Shown here in pieces: positions 17,509 to 55,200 of a stretch of 64,000 bases of DNA. Origin of the DNA: Euryodendron excelsum (taxonomy: Eukaryota; Streptophyta; Magnoliopsida; Ericales; Pentaphylacaceae); the NCBI GenBank assembly GCA_033060915.1, contig CM065384.1, forward strand, positions 35,622,501-35,686,500. The letters are read 5' to 3'. The notes beneath the pieces are model-generated. The model did not search any database. It was not told the DNA's origin and was given only the letters and a program-made list of their open reading frames with translations. The stretch's first letter is position 1; the number at the start of each line of letters is the position of its first letter. The position numbers and the translations under genes were made by a program.

Positions 17509-19921
17509 CATAGTTATTAATCTTGTACCGGCCAGGGTACCGATTTTTTTATTAGTACAGTACATATCGGTGCCAGTACAACACTGAGTACCGTCTCGAA
17601 TTTGACGCTATAAACATTATATATATACATATATATCAAAAATATATATAACACAAATATACTATCTGCAATCAAATTGTTCAAGAGTTCCAACAGTCAT
17701 TTCCATTGTCAATTACATGTAAAAATCCAACATAACCATATACTCACACTAAATATAAACATAACTTCCAACTTCCAAGATAAACACATTATTCATTATA
17801 GGAAACATAAACATACAATATAAATATAAAGTTTCACAATCATTAGTTCCAACTTCCAAGTACTTCATAAGAACTTAAACACACACCCATTATAGTAACA
17901 AACTACTACCAAATAAGTTCTCCCAAGAGACTTCAAAAGATACATAAATTACTCATAAAAGAAATCATTCAACATAAACATAAGGATCATCATCTCCTCC
18001 AAAGAATAAATTTGTAGCACCCCTATTATATTGGCTGTTATTCTCATTTGAAAGATTTTCATCACCATCATCAAAATGAGGCTCACTATCCTCCAATGTC
18101 AATGCTTTCAAATTCAATGGTGGTTCAATAATCTCCCTTCCAAGATCTTCTCCATCAAGTAGAGCAGGTTATTTAGACAACCAATCTTCTATTAAATATA
18201 TGTTGTCAAGACTAATGGGGTCAAGAGCATTCTTTTTGCGGCTAATATTCCTACAAATGTAACTCAATTTTTTATTAGTTAATATAAGATTATTGCATTT
18301 CAATGCATTTACTTTGGAGTGGCAAAATTCTCCAACATCAAGTCTATGCAATGGGTTGCACGAGGAGACCAAAAGAATCTTTTGTACTTTGTTTGCAACC
18401 TTTTTCCTGCAGCTTTGTAAGAAGCTTCATTATCTGTTACAAATTGTTCAATATTAGTCGGTCCCACAAGTTGAACAACTTCATCAAAAATACTAAATAA
18501 TGTGTCAGCATCCTTAATAAGGCCTGCTGTATAAAACATAGTGCCTTTGGGACAATACACAAGAGAATTTATAAGTGTCTCTTGCTTTCTATTCGTTCAT
18601 CTATCGAACATAACTGAGCATCCATAAGTCTTTCATGATTCTTGAATTTGAAAAGGATAGTCTTTAACTTCACAAACATTATTATTCAAAAGACTACACC
18701 TCAAGTCATGATAAGAAGGTCCCTTGAAACCCGATCCAATAGCTAGCATTGCATCTATCATTTGTTGGTAATACGTAGATAGAGCTGCATTAAACGGAAC
18801 ATTAGCATCATACCACCATCAAGTCACTGCCATTTTTTCTTGATCAACCATTTCCTTGGATGCCATTGCACTTCTTATCGAAGGTTGAGAGCTTGGGCTT
18901 GTTCTTGGAGCAAAATAACTGCTTGGTTGCTTTCTTCTCTTACTCCCATCATCTCTAGATTGAGCATTACTAATTGAAGGGGGGCTCAGGGGGTAATCAA
19001 CTTCATCGTCTCCCTCAAATGCAAGCCCTTGTCCAATGTCTTTCTTTAACCTTGCACTTCTTTCTTTCTCTCTGCTATTCTCTCCAAGCAATTGTTTCAT
19101 TTGCCATTTGACGTCCATCGACACCTTCTTGCAAGCACCAACTTCACCGCTAACCCCAGCAAGATGTTTCTTTAATCGAGTGATTCCACCACCTTGAAGG
19201 TGCTTATTACACTGGAGGCAAATAGTATTGTTCTTTTTACCAACAACCATTTGTGCATGAGCCCAAGCAGGATCATCTGATCTTATAGGAGTTGAGGCCA
19301 CTGATGTAGCAACACTTGAAGCATTATCAGTCATTTTTAAAACTTTCTGAAAATTTATAAGTAATAGCATATGGTCAGTTCTACTGTTAAACAGAGTTGA
19401 GAAAAATAATGATGGCTTATCCAAATAGCAATTGACATACTGAATAGCATATGGTTTGCCTTTATCCAAATAGCATATGGTTGCCTTTATCTGCTTGGCT
19501 GCTTTTTGCAGTAATTGAATGAAAAACAAATCTCCATATGCTATTATGGAGACCCAAAAAAAATCTGAGAGATATAATGGAGACTCAAAAAAATCCAACA
19601 CAAAAAAAAAAAAAAAATAGAAAGCACGTCACACTCACACATGCTGATATAATGAGGAAAGGAAAAATGACAAGAAGAACAAGGAAAGGTCGTCAAAGCG
19701 GGGTTTCATAAAAAAAAAAATGAAAATTTTTTACATTTTGGGCTTTGTTTTGTTGCAAGGCCTATATTGATTTCTCCTAGTGAACTGGGTAATTGATAGT
19801 CATAAGTCATGAACAAAAAATAAGTGAGAAGGAGGTTAATTAGAGCCTTACTTGGAAATGGAGCTTGCAAAGACTGATGAGAGATCACCAAGAGTTGGAG
19901 GCCGAGAGATCGTAGCTTCAT

Positions 19922-27024: not shown

Positions 27025-28476
27025 TGATTCCACTCTAAAAGTGTAATCTTTATCCCCTAATTAAGTGTTTGTTAGCCTCTATATGGGTATTAGAATAGGT
27101 TTTTAGCAATAAATTGATTTAAAGTGATTTTCTATGTGTGTTGTAGGTTTTTGGTGATAAAATGGTGAAAATGGCCTAAAGAGAAGAAGTCTATCCAGAC
27201 GGACCGTTCGGACGGTTAGACCGTTTGGACAGTCCGTTTGGATGGGCGAATTACCGTTCGAACGTTACGACGGAGATCGGTGTTCCAGAGTCGATGTTTC
27301 CCGTTCAAAGCCGTTCCAGAGTCCATTTTTCCCGTTCTAAGCTATCACAGAGTCGTCTTTTTCCATTCGAAGAAATGCAGAGCCAAGATTTTTCGTCTGG
27401 AGACCGTCCGAACGGTTACTCCACCGTCCGGATGGTGCATCTGGACGTCATTTAGACAGCCTTAAGACGCACTTCGGACGGTGAGCGCAGATTTTCCCTA
27501 CAACCCAGCAGTCAAAGAAAAAGTGATGTTATGTTAATTTTTAGGGTTTCAGCTGTGGGTAGAGAGGGAGAATAGGGGAAAAACATGTATTTTGCTTAGA
27601 TTTATTTTACATTATTGTATTTAGGACTTTGGGAAGGGTTTAGATAGATTCTTAGTATTGTTTAAGTGTAATCTTTCACATTTTCCATAGTTCAATATAT
27701 ATATACACTTTTGATTTGAAGTCAAGATGTTGTTTCTACACTTTGGAAAGCTTTCAACCATGGAATCTTCAAGCTAAGCTCATTATTTGGGAACAAATGT
27801 GAAGATCTACCAAGGAAGGCATAGAAAATGAAAGGGGAGTCCTAAATCTTGTTGAATATCTATTTTGCATATTTTTCTCTAATTATATTGGAATTAATTG
27901 TTGTAGAAATTTTAGATCTATAATCATAGTTAGTAACATGTGATTTATTTCTAAAGAACCCATGAATGGTGATAAAACTTAATTCCAAAATAATTAGAGA
28001 TTCATAAATTTTCAAAGCTAAACTTTCCGAATCAAGGGCCTTTGGACGGTCCTTGATTTGAGTTAACCCAAACTTCCCCTTTCAAATTTCGAGCTAGAAT
28101 TGGTAGATTGGAACATTTGGAATTTCGGTTAAATCAAGAGTTAATTTAGTCATAATTGTGGTTGTTGCAGTAGATTTTTCATAATTGTCAAATTACTTTA
28201 GCTAGAATCAAGTTGTTAGGTTTAATTTCAATTCAATCATTTGCCTAGTTATTAGCAAAACAACTCTTCAAACACCAAAAGATTTTCGGTCAAATTTTAG
28301 TTACCGTAGGTATCGATTCCACTCTTGGTTTGCGATTGCAATTTGCATAGGTTTTTAAACTCTACTCGTTTCGATTGCTAGATTGGCACAAGTCTCATGA
28401 GAGAACACGATAGTGGGAATACCCCCACTTAAACTACAAGCACCTCCATCGCGGTGAGCGTGGCGGGAGCAAGTCA
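27025..28476 (+). repeat. Athila 5' LTR (1452 bp)
   Basis: Begins TGATTCCACTCTAAAAG and ends GGGAGCAAGTCA. It aligns along its length with 38209-39758. Around 27195-27480 it holds several imperfect palindromic CCGTTCGGACGG words. Compared with the 3' LTR it lacks about 50 bases in the palindrome region and about 50 bases near 28120. Confidence 0.93.
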
Positions 28477-28478
28477 AG

Positions 28479-38208: not shown

Positions 38209-39758
38209 TGATTCCACTTTAAAAGCGTAATCTTTATCCCCTAATTAAGTGTTTGTTTGCCTCTATACGTGTATTAGAATAAGTTTTTAGCAATAAATTG
38301 GTTTAAAGTGATTTTCTATGTGTATTATAGGTTTTTGGTGATAAAATAGTGAAAATGGCCTAAAGAGAAGAAGTCCGTCCAGACGAACCGTTCAGACGGT
38401 TCCAACCGTTCGGACGGTGCGTTCGGATGGATAAATAACCGTTCGGACGGTTAGACCATTTGGAAGGTCCATTCGGACGGACGAATTACCGTTCGAACGT
38501 TACGACGGAGATTGGAGTTCCAGAGTCGATATTTCGCGTTCAAAGCCGTTCCAGAGTCCATTTTTCCCGTTCTAAGCTATCATAGAGTCGTCTTTTTCTA
38601 TTCGAAGAAATATAGAGCTGAGATTTTCCGTCTAAAGACTATCTGAACGGTTACTCCACCGTCCGAATGGTGCATCCGGACGCCATTCAGATGGCCTTAA
38701 GACATACTTCGAACGGTGAGCGCAGATTTACCCTACAACCTAGCAGTCGAAGAAAAAATGATGATATGTTAATTTTTAGGGTTTCAGCTATGGGCAGAGA
38801 GGGAGAATAGGGAAAAAAACATGCATTTTGCTTAGATTTATTTTACATTGTTGTATTTAGGACTTTGGGAAGGGTTTAGATAGATTCTTAGTATTGTTTA
38901 AGTGTAATCTTTCACATTTTTCATAATTCAATATATATATACACTTTTGATTTGAAGTCAAGATGTTGTTTCCACACTTTGGAAAGCTTTTAACCCTAGA
39001 ATCTTCAAGCTAAGCTCATTGTTTGGGAACAAATGTGATGATCTACCAAGGAAGGCATAGAAAATGAAAGGGGAGTCCTAAATCTTGTTAAATATCTATT
39101 TTGAATATTTTTCTCTAATTATATTGAAATTAATTGTTGCAGAAATCTTAGATCTATAATCATAGTTAGTAACATGTGATTTATTTCTAAAGAACCCATG
39201 AATGGTGATAAAACTTAATTCCAAAATAATTAGAGATTCATAAGTTTTTAAAGCTAAACTTTCCGAATCAAGGGCCTTTGGATGGTCCTTGATTTGAGTT
39301 AACCCAAACTCTCCCTTTCAAATTCCGTGCTAGAATTGGTAGATTGGAACATTTGAACCCAAACCCCCTTTTTAATCAAGTTAAATCCTTGTGTTCATTT
39401 GGAATTTCGGTTAAATCAAGAGTTAATTTAGTCATAATTGTGGTTGTTGTAGTTGATTTTTCATAATTGTTAAATTACTTTAGCTAGAATCAAGTTGTTG
39501 AGTTTAATTTCAATTCAATCGTTTGCCTAATTATTAGCAAAACAACTCTTCAAACACCAAAAGATTTTCGGTCAAATTTTAGTTACCATAGATATCGATT
39601 CCACTCTTGGTTTGCGATTGCAATTTGCATAGGTTTCTAAACTCTACTCATTTCGATTGCTAGATTGGCACAAGTCTCATGGGAGAACACGATAGTGGGA
39701 ATATACCAACTTAAACTACAAGCACTTCCATCGCAGTCAGCGTGGCGGGAGCGAGTCA
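38209..39758 (+). repeat. Athila 3' LTR (1550 bp)
   Basis: Begins TGATTCCACTTTAAAAG and ends GGGAGCGAGTCA, followed by the target duplication AAGGG. It carries one additional palindrome-rich segment (about 38436-38483) and one additional segment near 39355-39400 relative to the 5' LTR. TATATATA lies near 38933. Confidence 0.93.
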
Positions 39759-39763
39759 AAGGG

Positions 39764-43311: not shown

Positions 43312-45159
43312 AATTCAAAAAACAAGTAAAAATAATTAATCAAGGGATCGGTATTGTCAGTGGTTCCTCGCAATGAAACCAGCAAAATGGTATATGCATT
43401 CTTACTCAGTATGACTTTCCTTATCGTTGTTTATGCATTTAGTTGCTTGAATAAGTTGAATGATCTCGCACTGGGTTAGGTGCAAACAGAGTCATAAAAG
43501 TAACCACAGGACGCTTAGGAAAATATTGCTATGGTTCTCTTGGTTGTCACCTTACTATTGTCCACTCCCCTTATAATTCTACAATGAACTCTTTTATTAT
43601 TTAACTGCTAACTTCATTGACATTGGTACATCAATTTCATCCATGTTACTCAGGTCATCAAAGTAAAGAAACACACTAGAGTTCTTTTTCCAGTGTTTTA
43701 GTCACTCATGTGTCATTCAAGTTCTTCTTTAAATTGGTTATGGCATTCCAAACATGTATTGTCATTCTTGTAATTCACAAAAGATGTAACTGCAAAGCTA
43801 CACCACATATATTTTCAATTTTGTGACCACCAAACATGGATGTAATTATCATAGTCTCCTAAGATCTCTCAGAAGAATTATTTTCAATTTTGTTGGTCAC
43901 TTTCCAAACATGGATGTAAAGTGACCAACAAATTCAATAATTGAACATGTTACATACGAAGAAGTTTACAAAGGTAATAAGTTGGAAAAGAAAATTCAAG
44001 CAATATGTGATGCAAAATATACACACAATATACTTTCAGAAGAATTAAAAACAATTTGCAACATAATAATTTGTAACCCAAATATGATAGAAGAATTAAG
44101 CAGTATTACACCTTATAACATATCAATCGGTACAAAAAGAAGATATACCCAAACGCAAAGTATCCAATTAAGTAGTTTTTTTGATAAGTAGAGTACCGAA
44201 GTAAGTATAGAGAAACATCTATTAAATCTCAATGTGTCGAATGAATAAAAGTGAAACGAGAACCACACCAATTCAACAACAGTAATAACTTATTACAGAA
44301 AGGATTAACAATGCTTTAACTTATAACAATTAGCATGGAAACAGACCTTTTTTTTGGGTTGATAAGTGAAGTAAATTAAAATATAAAAAAAAAAGTGCCA
44401 AGGGGGCATCACCAACGCAAAGCAACAGAAGCAAAGAATAGTACAACCACTCAAGCCTCCATGGAGACCCAAAAGACCATAAAAGGAACAAAAAAGTTGA
44501 TTGGCCTAACCAAGTTCTTCAACTCCCTTCCACTCCTAGAGCTTTGCTTCCGCCACTCCTCCTAGCAGAGTTATCGTCCATCTTTGGCCTCTTATTGGCT
44601 CCAATAAAAGATGACAGCCTCGAAGAATCATTATCAAATCCTTCACACGGAATTCCATAAATTTACTTAGACCTTTAACCCTTTTCCTAACCCAAATTTG
44701 GAAAATAACCCATCATCCTTCATTTTTAAATCCCCATGGAAACTCTACCCTTTTCCCATCACCCAAACTTAGAAGATAAACTATATATCTTCCTTCATCT
44801 TCACATCACCATCAGAAACTATACCCTGATCATCCACTTTTCTTCCAACCAACCCCTCTCCAAGCTATCCCCTACTGGAGCCATATTTCCTTGACCCTTG
44901 CAAGGGATAAACCTACCACATGTGAAAGATCTCGACCTCCCTGAAGCTATAATTCTCTTTCCCATCGCTTTGATCTTCTTCCACTTAACCAAGCCTCTGC
45001 TTGCCTCTTCAACATCCCCCTATTGACAAGGAGACATGGCAAAAAATCTAGCTTTCTCCGCAACTCTCACCTCTTAATGGCAAGTCACATCTCAAATTCT
45101 TTATCACTACATGAATAAGGCCATAAGACCGTCCATAAAACAAAGACAAAGACCACAAG
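43312..45159. repeat. Segmental duplication A, copy 2, left part
   Basis: It aligns collinearly with 1-1540. It carries about 300 extra bases at 44010-44340 that copy 1 lacks; which state is ancestral is unclear. Its right edge is the insertion point of the Tat element, and the duplication resumes at 54752. Confidence 0.9.
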
Positions 45160-45716
45160 GGATAATACGACAAGTCTAGCCGGTCTGCCCCTTCGATGGA
45201 CAGACTGCACGAGCTTGGGCTACGTCACCAGGCTAGGACTCCCGAACCCCCTCCCAAACCAAGCCTGTAACGGATCGGGAAGGGCAGAGCTCCAACAGTA
45301 CACCTGGCGCTGCCATTAAGACACCTCGAGATTCTCGCCTAATGATCAGCTCCCACGATCTCATGATTGGGACGGCTCCCCCATAACTGGAGGACATGGT
45401 CCTTGGAGTCTAATATCAAGGCACGATACATCCCCACGATTTTGGATGCATAATTTGAGGGCACGATTGGCTCTCTTATGAAGGTGCCCACGATCCGAGC
45501 CAATACTCCAATAAAAAGGGGCAGTCAGCATCTCCAAGAGAGGTACAAGACACATCAACCCTTGAGCATTGTTACTCTGCCCATTTCTCTCTAGCCTAAC
45601 TTTGGCCTCGGAGTGTTATTGGCAAGCACCACACTAGTGTCCCAAGTAGGAGGATCCATCTCCTCTATCATTCGCATCAGTGGTTGGGAATGACGTACAA
45701 ATTCACTGCATCATCA
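45160..45716 (+). repeat. Tat 5' LTR (557 bp) and primer-binding site
   Basis: The first base is changed (GGATAATACG for TGATAATACG). It ends TGCATCATCA. TTGGCGCCGTCTATGGGAAC directly follows (45718-45737), a primer-site sequence common in Tat-type elements. Confidence 0.93.
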
Positions 45717-45754
45717 GTTGGCGCCGTCTATGGGAACGACATTTTAGTTGTTTC

Positions 45755-47220
45755 ATGGTCTTGACCCGATCCGGTGCTACATCAATCAGGCTAGACGAAG
45801 CAATGGAGGAACAGAGTACTCCAAGGATCGCTGCCTTAGAGCAGCAGATCATTGAAATGATGGCATCCATGAACCAGCTCTAGGCTCAGAATCAGGAGCT
45901 GCAGAGGAGATTGCCCCCGCCACCAGTGGCATCGACAGTGGTGGATCTTCCACTGCTGGAGGACCCACCGATGCCTGCAAACCAGCCGGCGGCAAGGAAC
46001 TGAGAGGGCAACGCCGGCAAGGGGGCGAAGGACCCAATGTTTCCTGGGGAAAATCCTCCCCCCAGAGGGGGCCGGAACCCACGCCGACGAAGCCTAGAGC
46101 CACATCACCCAATTCAAGGTGGCTACTGTGGTGCTTCCGAAGCACACGAGTGAAACTCGCCCAGTGTGGCACGAGTAGTTGAAGGAAATGCAGGCTAAAC
46201 TGGCTGGTGTGATTGCCGCGGTAAAAGAGAAAGGCCTTAGCATGGTAAAAGAGCTGGTGAATATGATAGACACGCCTTTCACGCTAGGAGTAATGAGGAT
46301 GCCCTTACCCCCGAAGTTCAAGATGCCCACATTGGAGTCCTTTGATGGCACAAAGGACCCCCTAGACCACCTGGAGACATATAAAGCCCTGATGGACCTC
46401 TAGGTGGTCCCTGACGAAATTATGTGCAGGGCATTCCCTACCACCCTTAAAGGCCCAATCCGGATCTGGTTCCACAGGCTTTCCCCTTGGATGATTGACA
46501 AGTTCGTGGACTTGAGCAGGTTGTTCATCAGCCACTATATCTAAGGGTAGAGGCAGAGGAGGCCCTCCACTTCCTTGTTCAATATTAAGCAACGCGAGAA
46601 GGAAACCCCGCATGAGTTTGTCACTCGTTTCAACTAGGAGACTCTGTACGTGGATGACTTGTATCAGAAGGTGGCAGTAGCGGCGTTCATTGCAGGTGTC
46701 AAAACACTCAAGTTCCTGTTTTCCTTGGCCAAGGAGGCGCCTAAGACCATGGCTGTGCTGATGCTCCAAGCACAAAAATACATGAACGCAGAGGACACTC
46801 TCAAGGCCAGGGAAGACCCGGAGAGTGCCACTCCAAGCCAGGATAAGAAAAAGACGGTTAAGGAGAATAAGGATAACAGGGTAGTGAAAGCCCCTAGAAT
46901 GGCTGAGCAGAAGCACAGAGCATAGGGTGATAGGCTCAAGCTGGCCAGATACAGCCAGCCTTTTACCCCCTTAAACACTCCTTTAGATCAAGTACTTTAT
47001 GAGATCAAAGGGGATCTTGCGCTAAAATGGCCAGGACGGATGAGGTCCTCCCAACAGAAAAGGCCAACTAACAAGTGGTGCCGATTTCACCAAGACCATG
47101 GCCACCATACGGAGGGCTGTTATGACCTCAAGCAGCAGGTTGAGAACCCAATCAAGCAAGGGAGATTAGGCAGGTACATAGCAGGGGGGAGGCGTGACGA
47201 TAGGCTAGACTAGCCCCCAA
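45755..47220 (+). pseudogene. Tat gag remnant
   Basis: The ATG at 45755 starts MVLTRSGATSIRLDEAMEEQ. The capsid-type region is at 46290-46640 (FKMPTLESFDGTKDPLDHLE, then IRIWFHRLSP), and a zinc-finger-like CRFHQDHGHHTEGCYDLKQQ is near 47070-47130. A frame change lies between 45990 and 46180. Several stops are TAG where CAG fits (MNQL-stop-AQNQ, HRA-stop-GDR). Confidence 0.85.
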
Positions 47221-47475
47221 GGCAAGCCCGAACGAAGAAGCCTTGAGAGGGAAAGGCAAAATCAGCAGCCCATGGGAGAAATAAGGGTCATCTTTGGAGG
47301 GTTCGCAGGTGGTGGTGAATCCTCATCCGCCAGGAAAAGACATACTAGGGAGGCCCAGAGCCAGAGGGAAGTCATGTCCATAGATCAATCAGCCAAGAAA
47401 TCCAGGGCAAAGCATGACCCTATCACATTCACAGATGAAGAGGCTTAGGCTATATGTCAACCTCACGATGACCCC

Positions 47476-47790
47476 TTGGTCATATCAACAGTGGTGTCCA
47501 ATTTCTTGATTCGGAGGGTCCTGGTAGATAGTGACAGCTCGACATATATTCTCTTCCTAAAGGCCTTCGAGCAGTTAAAGGTCGGCAGGAAAAAGTTACA
47601 ACCAGTCAATTTCCCCCTGGTCGGCTTCAGTGGCGATAGAGTTACACCTTTGAGCTCCATAGCCCTACTAGTAACGCGAGGAACTGCACCCCAACAAGCT
47701 ACCAAGATGGTAACATTCTTAGTAGTGGATTGCCCTTTAGCATACAACATCATTTTGGGCAGAAATCTGAAAAGGGCATGGACTTCACAA
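47476..47790 (+). pseudogene. Tat protease remnant with altered active site
   Basis: RRVLVDSDSSTYILFLKAFE occupies the position where D-[TS]-G-[SA]-[SA] is expected; the active-site glycine is replaced by Asp (DSDSS). The end of the domain (VDCPLAYNIILGR) is intact and then runs abruptly into RT sequence. Confidence 0.75.
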
Positions 47791-48870
47791 ATCTGAAAAG
47801 GGCATGTCCGAAGGATAGCTTCCCCTTACCCATAATAGACCAACTGGTGGATTCAACAGTAGGGTACGAGATGCTAGCCTTCATGGATGCTTTATCAGGT
47901 TACGACCAGATAAAGATGGTAGAGCACGACCAGGAGCACACGGCGTTTGTGACAGACAGAGGTCTGTACTACTACAAAGTAATGCCTTTCAACTTGAAGA
48001 ACGCAGGAGTAACTTACCAGAGGCTTGTCAATCGCTTGTTCAGCAATCAGATTGGAAGAAACATAGAAGTCTACGTCGATGACATGCTGGTAAAAAGCAA
48101 ACAAGCCACCAATCACCTAATAGATCTGGAAGAGACGTTCAAGAACTTACGGACCTATAAGATGAAGCTTAACCTTGCCAAATATGCCTTTGGAGTAGCA
48201 TCTGGCAAATTCTTGGGGTTCATGGTTTCTAACAAGAGGATAGAGGCTAACCCCAAAAAAGTCAGGGCAGTACTCGATATGCAGTCCCTAACATCCACCA
48301 AAGAAGTCCAAAGACTGGCAGGCAGAGTGGCAGCACTAAACAGATTCATCTCCAGATCAACAGATAAGTGCCTTCCTTTCTTTAAAATTCTGCGTAAAGC
48401 TTTCGAGTGGACCCCCGAATGTGAATAGGCTTTCCAGCAACTTAAAGGATATCTAAGTTCAGCACCGTTACTAAGCCGGACTGTGGAAGGTGAAGAACTC
48501 TATCTTTACCTCGCCATGTCAAACACAACAGTGAACTCAGCCGTGGTTAGGTAAGAGGAACGAGTCTAAAAGCCTGTCTATTACACAAGTAGGGCCTTGA
48601 GGGGCGCCGAGGAGTGATACCCCAAAATAGAGCTGCTGGCCCTCGCCCTTGTAACTTCAGCACAGAGGTTGAGGCCATACTTTCAGGCCCACACCGTAAT
48701 TGTCTTGACAGACCAGCCATTGTAAAAGATCGACCTCTAGCAGACTTGTCAAATGGTCCATAGAACTTAGCCAATTCGAGATCCAGTGCAGACCAAGACT
48801 GGCGATTAAGGGGCAGGCTATAGTAAACTTCATCGCTGAATTCAGACACCCAACAACCAACCCAATTGAT
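47791..48870 (+). pseudogene. Tat reverse transcriptase and gypsy-type RNase H remnant
   Basis: RT begins only at DFTNLKRACPKDSFPLP, so its N-terminal part and the usual protease-RT spacer are deleted. The catalytic motif YVDDML is near 48072, followed by GKFLGFMVSNKRIEANPKKV. A gypsy-type RNase H/tether region (LYLAMSNTTVNSAVVR, YYTSRALRGAEE, IELLALALVTSAQRLRPYFQ) follows from about 48440 with many stops. Confidence 0.88.
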
Positions 48871-48885
48871 AACACCCTGGAGCCC

Positions 48886-49260
48886 CAATGGGTGCTCAAT
48901 GTTGACGGCTCTTTCACTGAAAGAGCAAGTGGGGTCGGGGTCGTCATTGTCACACCCGAAGGGCACAAACTTGAATATGCTGTCAAGTTCAAATTTCCCG
49001 CCTCCAACAACGAGGCTGAATACGAAGCCTTGATAGCTGGCCTCCGAATGGCTCGACGAATGGGGGTAGAGCATATCCTGGTGCGCAACGACTCTCAACT
49101 TGTGGTAGAACAGGTCCAAGGCAAATATGAGGCCAGGGGAGAAAAGATGCAAGAGTACTATGAAATGGCCAAAAGCCTGGCCAAAAAATCCCCCAAAATA
49201 CTACTAGAAAGTGTACCAAGATTGCAAAATGAGGAGATAGATGGACTGGTCATGATAGCC
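48886..49260 (+). pseudogene. Second, archaeal-type RNase H (aRNH) of the Tat element
   Basis: LNVDGSFTERASGVGVVIV, then NNEAEYEALIAGLRMARRMG and VRNDSQLVVEQVQGKYEARG. These carry the D, E, D active-site pattern and the NEAEYEAL signature of the aRNH family. It is in one open stretch from 48892 to 49431. Having both RNase H types is characteristic of the Tat clade. Confidence 0.9.
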
Positions 49261-49529
49261 TCGTCTCAAGAGCATGACCCTGGAATCCCCATGGAAGTGC
49301 TAGATTCGCCAAGCATTCAGAACCTAGAAATACTCCAGGTAGAACAAGAAATGGAGTGGGCAACACCAATCAGAAACTACTTGGAGCGTGAATCCTTACT
49401 AGTGGACAAAGTTGAGGCAAGAAGGATCTAGTACAGAGCTAGCAGGTACGCCCTTATCAACGACTTTCTGTATAAAAGGGGACACACCCTACTCTGGCTA
49501 AGGTGTGCAGGAAAAACAGACGCTAATTA

Positions 49530-50591
49530 TATTTTGAGAGAAGTGCACGAAGGGGTTTGCGGCAACCACTCAGGAGGGAAAGCTCTTGCCAAGAAGATCC
49601 TTCGGGCAGCCTATTACTGGCCCACGATGGAAATGGATGCCCAAGATTTTGTGAGGAAGTGTGACAAGTGCCAGAGGTTTTCAAACATCCCAAGGCAACC
49701 GCCCCAGGAGCTGATGCCCATCTAGAGCCCTTGGCCTTTTGCCCAATGGGGAATTGACATAGTGGGGCCTTTGCCTTTGGGAAAAGGTCAGACCAAGTTC
49801 GTAGTGGAAGCCATAGACTACTTCACCAAGTGGGCCGAGGCTGAAGCCGTCGCCACCATCATTGAGCAGGAAATGAAGAATTTCCTGTGGAAGAACATCA
49901 TATGTAGATTCAGGATCCCTAAGGTAATCATCATAGATAATAGGAAACAGTTCGAGGGCGGTCAGTTCGGTCAGATGTGTTCAGACCTCCAGATTAGCCA
50001 TCACTTCTCTTCCCTAGAACATTCCCAAACCAACAGCTAGGTCGAAGTCACCAACCAAACCATGTTCAACATTATCAAGGCGAAGCTAGAAAAGGCGAAG
50101 GGCTTATGGGCTGAGGAGCTTCCCAATATTTGTGGGCCTACTGAACGACAAAGAGGGTGGCAATAGGGCACACCCCTTTTTCCCTAACATTCGGGTCTGA
50201 AGTGATCATCCTAGTGGAGATAGGCCTGTACAGCCCCAGGGTTGAACACTTCGAATAAGAGGCCAACAACGACGCCCTGGAGGTGAGCCTAGACCTATTT
50301 GAAGGGAGAATGTTACAAGCAGCCATAGAAGTAACTACCTATCAACAAAGGGTGCGCAAATATCATAAAGCCAAAGTAAAACCTAGGGCATTTAAAGCAG
50401 GAGATCTGGTTCTCAAAAGAGTCAATCAGTCTACCAGGAAGCTCAGTGACAGGAAACTGGGGCCAAATTAGGAAGGGCCATACACAGTTAAGGGGTTCTC
50501 TAGAAAAGGGACCAATTGGTTAACCGGAATCGATGGCAACGACCTCCCCAACCCTTGGCATGCTGAGCACCTGAGAAAGTACTATGTTTGA
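49530..50591 (+). pseudogene. Tat integrase remnant
   Basis: HHCC zinc finger: HEGVCGNHSGGKAL to CDKCQRFSNIPRQ (about 49546-49695). Core: FAQWGIDIVGPLPLGKGQTK, FVVEAIDYFTKWAEAEA, then VIIIDNRKQFEG, and VEVTNQTMFNIIK with the presumed third acidic residue. It ends with WHAEHLRKYYV and a stop at 50589-50591. Stops include TAG before SPWPF and before VEVTN, both fitting CAG changed to TAG. A frame change occurs near 50140-50280. Confidence 0.9.
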
Positions 50592-50649
50592 TGTAACCAG
50601 CACTCATTAACGAAATCTTGGCACTTCAAAGCCCCAAAATGATCGTCTA

Positions 50650-51245
50650 CTCGCGTGACTCATGAAACCCAAGGCTATTAAGCCCAACTGGTCAGTCTCG
50701 ACGATTGACCAGACAAGCCAAAAGGCCACAAAGCTACTTAGCCCAAGTGGTCAATCCTAACGATTGACCAGACAAACTGAAAGGCCATAAGGCTATTAAG
50801 CCCAAGTGGTCAATCCCAACGACTGACCAGACAAGCCGAAAGGCCACAAGGCTACTTAGCCCAACTGGTCAGTCCTAACGACTGACCAGACAAGCCGAAA
50901 GGCCACAAGGCTATTAAGCCCAATTGGTCAGTCCCTATGACTAACCAGACCAGCCGGAAGGCCATAAGGCGACCATACCGCAACTGGTCAACCCCCAAGG
51001 CTGACTAGACAAACAGAAGTCACGAGGCTACTAAGCGGAACTGGTTAGTCCCTAAGACTAACCAGACCGACCCAAAGGCCCTGAAACATGAAGCCCAACT
51101 GGTCAATCCTGAAGACTGACCAGCCAGACTCGGAAGGCTTGCAGGTTAACGAGTCCACCTGGTTAGTCCAAGAGACTAACTAGATTCGCTTAGATAATCA
51201 TAAGGCTACTGACCTCATCTGGTTAGTCCTATGACATTACTAGTG
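50650..51245 (+). repeat. 59-bp tandem repeat, about ten units, each with a hairpin
   Basis: Unit starts are at 50688, 50747, 50806, 50865 and 50924, exactly 59 bases apart, then less regular to about 51245. Each unit contains CTGGTCAGTC and GACTGACCAG (or close variants) separated by about five bases, so it can form a 10-bp stem. Other shared words are AAAGGCCACAAGGCTA and AAGCCCAA. It lies just after the pol stop. Confidence 0.92.
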
Positions 51246-51407
51246 AAAAAAAAAGAGAAAAGAAAAAAGGGAAAAGGTAATCACAGGCATTTGAACAAAA
51301 GAGCACGGAGCATAGAGCACAGATTAGAAGCAAAAAGGCATTTTCATTAATGGAAGGAAGTTACAAAAAAAATATAAAAATTACAAGGCTTGGGTCTGTT
51401 GATAAGC

Positions 51408-53580
51408 TCAGGATTGAGCATCATCCTCCTCTTCTGCTGCAGGGGTCTAGTCTTCCCCACCAAGCGCTTGGGAGGTGGTATCATCAGACGGCTTCAGGGT
51501 GGAGAAATCCAAGTCTGGGAAGAGCTTCTTTGCTACAACCTTAGCATCAATGAAACCCTCCATGTAAGTCCGCTGACCTCCTCCTGGAAGGATGCCTAAC
51601 CTTAAACTCCTCTATAGCCCTCTCTTGAGCAGTTTTGAGCTGCCCCTCCAGCTCAACTACCCTCAAGCCTAGAGAGTCTCTGACTGCTTTGAAGGCCTGA
51701 GCATCAAAAGTCAACACTTTAACCTTTTTCTTGAGCTCTGCCGATTCGTCCAAAATGAAAGATTTCTCTGCCTCAGCAGCTGCCTCGGATTCCTTGGCAT
51801 TTTTGACTTTATTCTCCAGACCATTGATCGTCTCAATCAAGGTCTCGATGACTTGACCTTTTTTAGAGCTCTTAGTCGTCTTCGCTTTCAAGCGGGTAGA
51901 CAGACAGAGCGCTTTCACATGCAACTGCAAAAGGATGGGAGGATCAGTATCAATAAACCAGAGCAGTCAGATGAAAAACAAAAGTTAACCAGAATCATCA
52001 CCTTGACAGCATCATGGTTCATGCCCTTTATCAGTTGGGCGTTGTTCCAGTTGGCAAGGGGGCCCACGTCCTCTATACTGATGAATTGCTACATCCTCTC
52101 CCAAGCAGCCTGGACTTCTTCCACAACGAGGGGCTCGCCCTGCTGAGCTGGAGGTGTAGGGACCGTAGGTGTTGCTGCAGCAGGCAGAGGCATAGGCATT
52201 CCAGCGCTAGACTTGGAAGACTGACCAAGTGCTTGGGCAGCAAATGAAGCCTTAGCTATCGGGGGCGGGGGGGGGGGGGGGGGGGGGGGGGGCGCGCAAC
52301 CACCGTAGGACCCTTGTTAGGGGAATGCTCAACAGTCTTGCCCCCAGAGCTGGACTGATGGCGTTTGCTAGGTCTCTCTCCAGTGGCCTTTGCCTTCTCC
52401 ATTTCCTCGAATTTCTTCCTAGCAGAGAATCCTATATTCCTCTTGTCAAAACCCATGGTAGGTCCCTGTCCTGCAAAGCACACAAAACAAAGGTCAGTGC
52501 ACTCATTGAAAAGTAACTATTACAAACATATTAGACTCACTCCTCTCAGTGCGAAGGGCTTCAATGGAAGGGTCTGGACCTAAGAGGTAGGCTACCAAAC
52601 TCTCACCAGCTACAAGGGGCGCCCGGTTCTTGACTGGGTGCTCCCTCACCCTCGCTAACCAGCCTTCCCTCGACTCATCCTCCAGCATAGGAAGGCGTGC
52701 TGAGCAAAAGAAAAATGGATGATAGTTAGACCACTACCTTAAGAAGGGATCAAGCATAAAAGCACGAAATGCGCTTACCCTTCCTACCTAGACTACCCTA
52801 TTGTCTGGGTATGCGAGGCATCTGATCGGTCACATCCTTTCAGTGGGCAATCTCCATACCCTCACCATAAACAAAGAAATACTTCTCCTTCCAGCGCTTG
52901 TGAGAGACTGGGAGATTAGTTATTAGAGTAGGCTAACCATCCCGAGCTAAGAAGTAATACCAGCCTGAGCTCTCGCTCTCCGTTATTTTATAACAGAAAA
53001 AGAAGTCTTCAGGGGTCAGGATTTCCTCCTTGTCGGTAGCGGCTTGCCACAAGGTAGCACAGCCTGCAAGAATGCGCCATGAATTGGGCATGAGCTGCCC
53101 AGGAGTTAGCTTGGCCCTGCTCAAGACTCCCCTAATGGGAGGAGCAATAGGAAACCTCAGCCCCCCGGTCAGTGCACTCTCATACACCATGATTTCCCCA
53201 GGGCAAGGGAGGCACGCTCTGTCCTTGCTCCCAGGAACTCTACAGCTCATGGAGGCCAGGAACTAGTAGGCAGACAAGAGCATTCTCACATTTGCCCCGT
53301 ATAGGATGGAGGCTATGTGCCTCGCCTCGTGGCTACAGTCTGGGGCAGAGGGCAACGCAGCTCTGGCCTTGGCCACAGCCACAGGGGCACTTTCAAAGGT
53401 GTCCACGATGGCCACAGGGCTCCTCGCCCTTGTTGGCCTTACCTCTTAGGTAACATCCGCAGTATCGGCCCTATAGTAGTTCGCGGAGGCACTAGAAGCC
53501 TCGTCTGGCCTAACCCTATCCAGATCCATCGAAGCAGTGCGCTTAAAGCTGGGTGATAGGGTGATTGGGTGGGGATTCAT
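51408..53580 (-). pseudogene. Antisense intron-containing gene in the Tat element (aORF)
   Basis: ATG at 53580 (MNPHPITLSP). Exon 1 carries a segment typical of the 'putative gypsy type transposon' domain (GGLRFPIAPP, PGQLMPNSWRILAG, about 53175-53060). Three introns have canonical ends on the minus strand: 52778-52700, 52540-52471 and 52001-51925. Exons 1 (802 nt) and 2 (159 nt) give consistent phase-1 joins. The third exon encodes MGFDKRNIGFSARKKFEEME and a poly-Pro run from the C/G tract; the last has a long coiled coil (51930-51600) and ends near FPDLDFSTLKPSDDTT. Stops (e.g. VT-stop-EVR) and an indel in the G tract inactivate this copy. Confidence 0.82.
52261..52292. repeat. Guanine homopolymer inside the antisense gene
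   Basis: Five G, one C, then 26 G. On the coding (minus) strand this reads as a Pro-rich run. Its length variation probably accounts for the frame mismatch between exon 3 and exon 4 of the antisense gene. Confidence 0.95.
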
Positions 53581-54190
53581 GATCTTAGGGTCTTCTATTT
53601 CGCGAAGAGTAGCGAAAGTAGACCTAGAAGCCTCTAAAACGCCCTAGTACACATACTCAACAAAGGAGGGGTTGCCTATGAACCCTAGAGGGTACGTGGC
53701 CCTAACTCTCCACTCGTAATGCCAGATGGTCTTCTGTAGAAGCCAAAACATATACCCACACACCTTAAATACCTTGATGAGTAGAAAGGTTGAGAGGAAT
53801 GTTTGAGTTTGCTTCGAACAACCAGCAATGGTGAAAGAAATGGGGAAGAAGACAAGAGAAATCACTTGCCGAATAACCCGAAAAAGATGTGCAAAATGGA
53901 GGGCCCTTTTGTGAACCGCCAAGGTTTTATAGGCCCCCTCTTTTCAAAATCAATGACGTGGATCTGCACAGGGTTCACAGATCAAACGGTTGGTGATGGA
54001 AACATCCAATTGATATACGGGGCCAACCCTATGAAGCCATGTGGCACAAACTCCAAGGGTCGCTTTGATTCGGTAAGCATAGTAATCATGATGATTTTAC
54101 AGTGCCATAAATGCGCTTCAGGGCTGGTACCCCGTGACTCTTTGGAATTCCCACTGGCCGACCTTGGCTGCCAAGGGAATTGGGGACATC

Positions 54191-54746
54191 TGATAATACG
54201 ACAAGTCTAGCCGGTCTGCCCCTCCGATGGACAGACCGCATGAGCTCCAGCTATGTCACCAGGCTAGGACTCCCGAACCCCCTCCCAAACCAAGCTTGCC
54301 ACGGATCAGGAAGGGCAGAGCTCCAACAGTACACCTGGTGCCGCCATTAAGGCACCTCGAGATTCTCGCTTGATGATCAGCCTCCACGATCCCATGATTG
54401 GGTCGGCTCCCCCACGACTGGGGGCTTGGTCCTTGGAGTTTAATATCAAGGCACGATACATCCCTACGATTTTGGATGCATAATTTGAGGGTAGGATTGG
54501 CTCTCCCATGAGGGTGCCCACAATCCGAGCCAACACTCCAATAAAAAGGAGTAGTCATCATCTCCAAAAGAGGTACGAGACACGTCAACCCTTGAGTATT
54601 GTTACACTGCTCATTTCTCTCTAGGCTAACTTTGGCATCAGAGTGTCTTTGGCAGGCACCACACCGGTGTCCCAAGCAGGAGGATCTATCTCCTCTATCA
54701 TTCACATCAGTGGTCAAGAAGGACGTACAAATTCATTGCATCATCA
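54191..54746 (+). repeat. Tat 3' LTR (556 bp)
   Basis: Begins TGATAATACGACAAGTC and ends TTGCATCATCA; target duplication ACAAG follows. The purine-rich AAGGGAATTGGGGACATC just before it is the likely polypurine tract. It differs from the 5' LTR at scattered positions. Confidence 0.93.
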
Positions 54747-54751
54747 ACAAG

Positions 54752-54834
54752 CAAATTCCCCCTTCTACCCAACCAAAAATTCCTCTCCCAGATACTTCAT
54801 CACCAATTTCCAATAACCCAGCATATTATGCAAT

Positions 54835-54867
<33 letters not shown>

Positions 54868-55200
54868 CCCCCAACAACCTCTTAGCATCCACTGAATCTT
54901 AGTCTAAATTCCTATTGAATTCCACGTTTTCCTCCAACTTAGATAGGCCATCCCATTAGTCTTAAGGAAGAGCAATTTTGCTCACTAAACCACTACTCTA
55001 CCGAACTCCATGAAAACTTGCATCAATGCCAAACTTCCCCTTTTGCCTTATGCAACTCCCACTAAATCAGCTTCAGATGACAGAACAGAACTCTCCTTGT
55101 CCTCTAATGCACAATCAAAATGGGAGTTAGGCAATTTCTAGGCTTAAAAAACATGTCCAGACTCTAGACGGACCTCACCATCATAGGCTGCCCCACCTGA
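54752..55200. repeat. Segmental duplication A, copy 2, right part
   Basis: It continues the match to copy 1 from about 1543 to 1965 (CAAATTCCCCCTTCTACC onward). A run of 31 C (54836-54866) replaces a run of about six C near 1630 of copy 1. Similarity ends near 55195. Confidence 0.85.

Follow-up and report, generated by a model that had tools for sequence, protein, structure and literature searches.

Results

A decayed four-exon gene lies opposite to pol in a Tat/Retand-type element

The window analyzed here, a stretch of 64,000 nucleotides from Euryodendron excelsum (contig CM065384.1, positions 35,622,501 to 35,686,500), contains a Ty3/gypsy LTR retrotransposon. In the region that separates pol from the 3' LTR, the minus strand of this element harbors a gene of four exons, now decayed, whose product would combine a TRP28 (Transposase_28) domain with a probable coiled coil (Table 1). 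The element is bordered by two copies of the target site duplication ACAAG (45155-45159 and 54747-54751), and its LTRs are 89.4% identical (K2P 0.117). If 1.3e-8 or 7e-9 substitutions accumulate per site each year, this divergence corresponds to an insertion age of about 4.5 or about 8.3 million years, respectively. The sequences flanking the element (44325-45159 and 54747-55200) are 83-92% similar to a single unbroken stretch at 709-1969, and as both flanks match this one stretch, the element is nested in another repeat, of which the paralog at 709-1969 represents the empty site. Elsewhere in the window, a second LTR pair (27025-28477 and 38209-39759, 87.6% identical) encloses RT_RNaseH and integrase matches and is another Ty3/gypsy element on the plus strand, and a BED zinc finger is found in an open frame of 269 amino acids on the minus strand (18822-19628).

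Table 1. Features of the retrotransposon and of its antisense gene (window coordinates)
Feature	Position	Strand	Remarks
LTR retrotransposon, Ty3/gypsy, Tat/Retand type	45160..54746	+	9587 bp; from LTR pair, boundaries, target site duplication and pol domains
5' LTR	45160..45716	+	557 bp
pol, broken into pieces	47640..50037	+	Pfam
RVT_1	47640..48425	+	Pfam, in broken pol
RNase H (RT_RNaseH) remnants	48429..48722	+	Pfam E 2.3e-4, below cut-off
RVT_3	48709..49428	+	Pfam E 5.3e-20
Integrase zinc-binding	49432..49722	+	Pfam
Integrase core	49726..50037	+	Pfam
59-bp tandem repeat array	50670..51138		between pol and 3' end of antisense gene
Exon 4	51408..51924	-	probable coiled-coil part; frame change in this copy
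Intron 3	51925..52001	-	77 nt, phase 0, GT...AG
Exon 3	52002..52470	-	homopolymer run of 32 nt at 52261-52292 and frame change in this copy
Intron 2	52471..52540	-	70 nt, phase 1, GT...AG
Exon 2	52541..52699	-	159 nt
Intron 1	52700..52778	-	79 nt, phase 1, GT...AG
Exon 1	52779..53751	-	TRP28 domain; 802 nt if counted from 53580
Likely start codon	53749..53751	-	ATG in 20/21 copies; codon-position signal begins here
TATA-box candidate	53925..53934	-	CTATAA (~53931) kept in 20/21 copies; ~180 nt upstream of ATG 53751
3' LTR	54191..54746	+	556 bp

A reading of the DNA made from its letters alone (hereafter, the sequence-only reading) had assigned the antisense frame to a Tat-type retrotransposon, an assignment borne out by the pol domains. 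According to the Pfam matches, these follow the order RVT_1, RNase H remnants, RVT_3 and integrase, the RNase H matches being weak because the pol frame is broken. We take the RVT_3 match to be the archaeal-type RNase H (aRH). On this equation, a second RNase H is present besides the RT_RNaseH remnants, and it is located between these weakly matched remnants and the integrase. A second RNase H domain of archaeal type has been described as the mark of the Tat clade, and the order RH, aRH, INT as that of Ogre and Retand (Neumann 2019, PMC6317226). The presence of an antisense TRP28 frame between pol and the 3' LTR further agrees with Retand, and so do the dimensions of the element: the LTRs, the internal region (8474 bp) and the distance from pol to the 3' LTR (about 3.7 kb, as measured to 54190 from the last listed pol-like piece, at 50468, which is without Pfam match) all fall within the published Retand ranges of 315-1194 bp, 7380-12869 bp and 2933-6566 bp, respectively (PMC11963269).

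The three introns of the antisense gene have the positions and terminal dinucleotides given by the sequence-only reading, and the lengths and in-frame joins that it had described for exons 1 and 2 are likewise correct. Introns are richer in U than exons (43-45% versus 19-23%). When scored with a rough plant consensus, the donors of introns 1, 2 and 3 rank 3, 33 and 9 among the 114 GTs of the region and the acceptors 2, 1 and 7 among its 211 AGs; at rank 33, donor 2 is left unproven by site strength alone. In the window copy, exon 1 has one in-frame stop upstream of 53580 and five downstream of it, which, together with the frame changes in exons 3 and 4, means that this copy encodes no intact protein. 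The window copy of the gene is therefore a dead pseudogene, and the sequence-only reading had been silent on the exon 1 stops and on both frame changes.

All three introns are present in the aligned copies of the same genome

Using the gene as query in a DNA search of the 1.06 Gb assembly from which the window derives, we scored the best 40 of 494 candidate places and took from these 20 near-full-length paralogs, mostly by rank and with some near-full-length rows left out, which together with the window form an alignment of 21 copies. All three introns are present in each of the 21 copies, with lengths of 78-81, 69-72 and 76-78 nt. GT is kept at donors 1, 2 and 3 in 19, 20 and 21 copies and AG at the corresponding acceptors in 18, 18 and 19, so that conservation of the splice-site dinucleotides amounts to 0.85-1.0, compared to a mean of 0.74 for the other window GTs and AGs of the region, several of which, within introns 1 and 2, equal the splice sites in conservation. 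The TGA stop that ends exon 4 (51410-51408) is kept in 20 of the copies.

No copy without intron 1, 2 or 3 was encountered among the 21 aligned copies. Similarly, a 180-base probe for the spliced junction 3 yielded 78 partial matches (best 40 scored of 314 candidates), none of which continued for more than 8 bases past the junction, in line with an origin of new copies from sense RNA. Missing splice sites along with an uninterrupted frame in close relatives had been named by the sequence-only reading as the observation that would speak against splicing; this combination was looked for in the 20 paralogs and was not seen, in a comparison of decayed copies throughout, each of the 21 having 2-9 in-frame stops along the spliced frame.

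The spliced frame was under selection while the family moved

We analyzed the distribution over codon positions of shared variants, defined as those found in at least three of the 21 copies and mostly older than the insertions. Along the spliced frame, shared variants occur at 158/609, 129/609 and 245/608 sites of codon positions 1, 2 and 3, an excess at third positions (245/608 versus 287/1218 at positions 1 and 2; p = 2.8e-13, assuming independence of sites). Private variants are evenly distributed (141, 142 and 131; p = 0.44 under the same assumption). Positions 52299-52241 and 51619-51567, where the window copy changes frame, were left out, as were columns with letters in fewer than 17 copies. 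By exon, the shared variants at positions 1, 2 and 3 number 63, 50 and 103 in exon 1, 11, 15 and 27 as well as 26, 23 and 35 in the two parts of exon 3, and 30, 19 and 52 as well as 14, 13 and 19 in those of exon 4, while exon 2 (14, 9 and 9 of 53) shows no third-position excess by itself. In addition, the copies contain 2-9 stops each in the spliced frame versus 31-46 in each other frame, and as the sense-strand frames over exon 1 hold 6-16 stops per copy, the signal in exon 1 is not due to a sense gene.

Since it is the shared and not the private variants that favor third positions, selection acted on the antisense protein during the time in which the family moved. As read from the alignment, the pattern is that of a protein kept by selection in the source elements, with free decay in each dead copy. 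This result also bears on the proposal that the antisense transcript functions at the RNA level, for instance through dsRNA and siRNA formed with the sense RNA, the protein being incidental. Such an activity has been put forward as a possible additional role (PMC7264820), but the preference of shared variants for third positions demonstrates that a protein was selected, and we regard this explanation as unlikely; a dual role, of RNA and protein, is possible.

The likely start codon lies upstream of the position first proposed

The sequence-only reading had described an ATG-initiated gene starting at 53580. The coding frame was confirmed, whereas the likely start had to be moved 57 codons upstream, to an ATG at 53751. 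Between 53751 and 53581, shared variants are found at 19, 9 and 30 of 57 sites for codon positions 1, 2 and 3, a signal that is gone further upstream (22, 25 and 24 of 49 sites, 53900 to 53752). The ATG at 53580 is itself kept in 19/21 copies; within the added 57 codons, a single codon reads as a stop in 8/21, the window among them.

Upstream of the start codon, the minus strand also contains a donor-like AAG|GTA at 53772, with AG|GTA in 20/21 copies, making a 5' leader intron possible. No acceptor for this donor was clearly right, the candidate at 53644 was dropped as it is not conserved among the copies, and the coding signal starts at ATG 53751.

Antisense TRP28 is common to other subfamilies of the genome

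We further analyzed 20 TRP28 loci of other subfamilies in the same genome, taken from the first 23 of 150 listed, with 3 skipped. In all 18 loci with a pol match (two had none), pol is opposite in strand to TRP28. The motif at the end of exon 1 was located in 10 of the 20 loci, and in another subfamily (about 30% identical) G|GT, as read by eye, occurs near the homologous place in 9/10.

A multi-exon layout with introns is what a host gene would bring, and capture of genomic DNA would keep the introns. A recent capture, by which such a gene was inserted or transduced antisense into this element or family, is nevertheless very unlikely and was rejected on the strength of the 18 antisense loci above and of the published occurrence of antisense TRP28 in Retand (57/104 antisense ORFs and all but two of 63 clusters; Vicient 2025, PMC11963269). 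A capture that dates back to the root of the lineage is possible and would be compatible with our main reading, which is set out below.

Relatives in other plants share the intron positions and phases

Searches with the translated exons retrieved three Actinidia rufa proteins with 45-52% identity over 81-98% of the query and, as weaker matches, one Castanea and one Humulus protein. Of the A. rufa models, P0001 is joined at both intron 1 and intron 3, P0002 at intron 1 and P0003 at intron 3; at intron 2, P0001 and P0002 take another donor, and P0003 is without exon 2 and P0002 without most of exon 4. The Castanea model P0004 covers exon 2 completely. Castanea and the window differ by a few codons in the placement of donors 1 and 2. 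For P0003, the N-terminal part of the protein could be aligned with the antisense strand at the 3' LTR border (54185-54108, E 2e-4), indicating that its gene adjoins LTR-like sequence.

Protein searches (120 of 190 and 120 of 1,696 matches listed) reached Castanea, Quercus and Lithocarpus as well as many contig ORFs. Neither viral contigs nor contigs of prokaryote genomes yielded any relative. Of the 123 proteins evaluated at junction 1 among the matches listed, 11 models are spliced gaplessly, 8 ORFs continue through the junction with 27-37 inserted residues, 65 end in a tail, the tail is too short in 1 and 38 fall short of the junction, these fractions, like those given below, describing what was found, as the searches favor certain ORF lengths and the proteins are related and hence no independent draws. 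The donor-spanning codon at this junction is G, as for G|GT, in 66/73 unspliced ORFs. At junction 2, P0015, P0018 and P0022 read KK-SKY and then end, which fits a phase 1 donor of the form A|GT, the donor of the window (A|GTGAG, likewise phase 1) being located about five codons earlier; P0014 and P0091 suggest that one Quercus subfamily may use another donor here. At junction 3, the insert begins with V, as for GT in phase 0, in 29/29 read-through ORFs and ends with K in 14, Q in 11 and S in 4, the latter rejoined in another frame, and Q precedes the junction in 26/28 exon-4-only ORFs with upstream residues. One Quercus suber model (P0100) fuses TRP28 to alpha-N-acetylglucosaminidase domains, which is either an annotation artefact or a chimeric gene.

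The sequence-only reading had held the in-frame joins to be unlikely by chance, had raised the possibility of a conserved multi-intron structure and had proposed translated searches as a check on intron positions. The matching places and phases in Actinidia and Fagaceae relatives, along with the introns of the 21 aligned copies, support both of the former propositions.

Many of these relatives are annotated as single uncharacterised genes, and the spliced models might accordingly be domesticated TRP28 host genes, the element copies being unspliced remnants. We consider this highly improbable, because the paralogs of the element family show selection during their spread, because P0003 reaches into sequence matching the LTR border, and because many candidates of the families exist in one genome (2221 and 494 candidate places, with the best-scored listed). 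The view that GT/AG pairs and frame joins arose accidentally and unspliced in decayed sequence with antisense ORFs, in favor of which stand the rank of donor 2 by the rough consensus, the existence of stronger unused sites and the many stops of the window copy, is extremely improbable and was rejected, being contradicted by the same junctions and phases in other plants, by the introns common to all 21 copies and by the codon-position test.

The predicted protein shares the TRP28 domain with antisense ORFs of Retand elements

The TRP28 Pfam match of the window gene scores 23.3 bits (E 7.6e-5), below the cut-off of 26.2, and a Castanea relative carries PF04195. In an AlphaFold model of a Castanea relative (mean pLDDT 53), confidence is moderate for the TRP28 part and low for the remainder, and a long C-terminal helix spans residues 460-567, with pLDDT values of about 80-91 over 491-560; this predicted helix is a probable coiled coil. 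Across two models, the TRP28 parts are of low to moderate confidence, and Foldseek with the first AlphaFold model gave no match at E <= 0.001.

DNA binding has been predicted for TRP28 (Vicient 2025, PMC11963269), and for GENE23 of Grande nuclear localisation and a promoter of its own have been reviewed (2020 review, PMC7264820). By analogy, the antisense protein would most likely be a nuclear regulator of the element, a role borrowed from these relatives, as it relies on the published TRP28 and GENE23 data.

Discussion

A model for introns facing backwards in a retrotransposon

Taken together, we consider it quite likely that the minus strand carries the antisense accessory gene of the family, with four exons joined by splicing and with introns that are retained because the element replicates via sense RNA. 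In this model, RNA polymerase II would start at the TATA box candidate between the 3' LTR and the gene, the spliceosome would remove the three short U-rich introns from the minus-strand RNA, and the resulting mRNA would be translated into the protein with TRP28 domain and C-terminal coiled coil. Replication of the element would in turn proceed through the sense RNA, in which the introns read backwards (CT...AC), could not be spliced and would thus be copied into each new insertion. The introns would therefore persist for as long as independent transcription and splicing of the antisense gene continue.

More tentatively, and with somewhat less than even confidence, we propose that the antisense ORFs of eudicot Retand elements (TRP28, 'Smc', 'TolA' etc.) may be one spliced gene, the introns of which would predate the split between the Actinidia and Fagaceae lineages and would have been kept since only the antisense RNA is spliceable. 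Splicing might then serve as a strand mark that allows expression of the regulator without loss of introns from the replicating RNA.

If the gene is indeed spliced, an abundant lineage of plant retrotransposons carries a conserved multi-intron gene opposite to gag-pol, which would explain the fragments in surveys that seek unbroken ORFs and would show that backward-facing introns can be carried for long by an RNA-copied element. Spliced minus-strand reads would provide a clean marker for the time and place of antisense gene expression, and since spliced models allow prediction of the complete protein, TRP28 function would come within reach.

Comparison with known systems

The Retand ORFs surveyed by Vicient (2025, PMC11963269) resemble the window gene in their antisense orientation, their position between pol and the 3' LTR, the TRP28 domain, the tandem arrays and the long region between pol and the 3' LTR. 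They differ in that the survey proceeds ORF by ORF (600 bp or more), whereas the window gene is predicted to be a single spliced gene with three introns; the word 'intron' is absent from the main text of that paper, and several of its separate antisense ORFs ('Smc', 'TolA') may be later exons of the same gene. Grande (gene23), RIRE2, Silene Retand and PvRetro13 likewise have an accessory gene in antisense orientation in the region from pol to the 3' LTR (PMC7264820). The main text of this review mentions no intron, and the original descriptions of Grande, Silene Retand and extra ORFs may hold an earlier mention.

Outside plants, HBZ of HTLV-1 is, like the proposed window gene, an antisense and spliced gene of an LTR element that encodes a coiled-coil (basic zipper) regulator (PMC2386809). 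In HBZ, the start is located in the 3' LTR, which contributes a single short exon (PMC2386809), unlike in the window gene, which has three introns within the coding region and a TATA candidate outside the LTR; we claim no homology between the two. Spliceosomal introns in plant LTR retrotransposons are known from Ogre and EVADE (PMC12786077, PMC6317226), referred to in a 2025 review as notable exceptions among generally intronless elements (PMC12786077). The introns of Ogre and EVADE belong to the sense RNA, where they have a role in gag-pol expression (PMC12786077, PMC6317226), in contrast to those of the window element, which are antisense.
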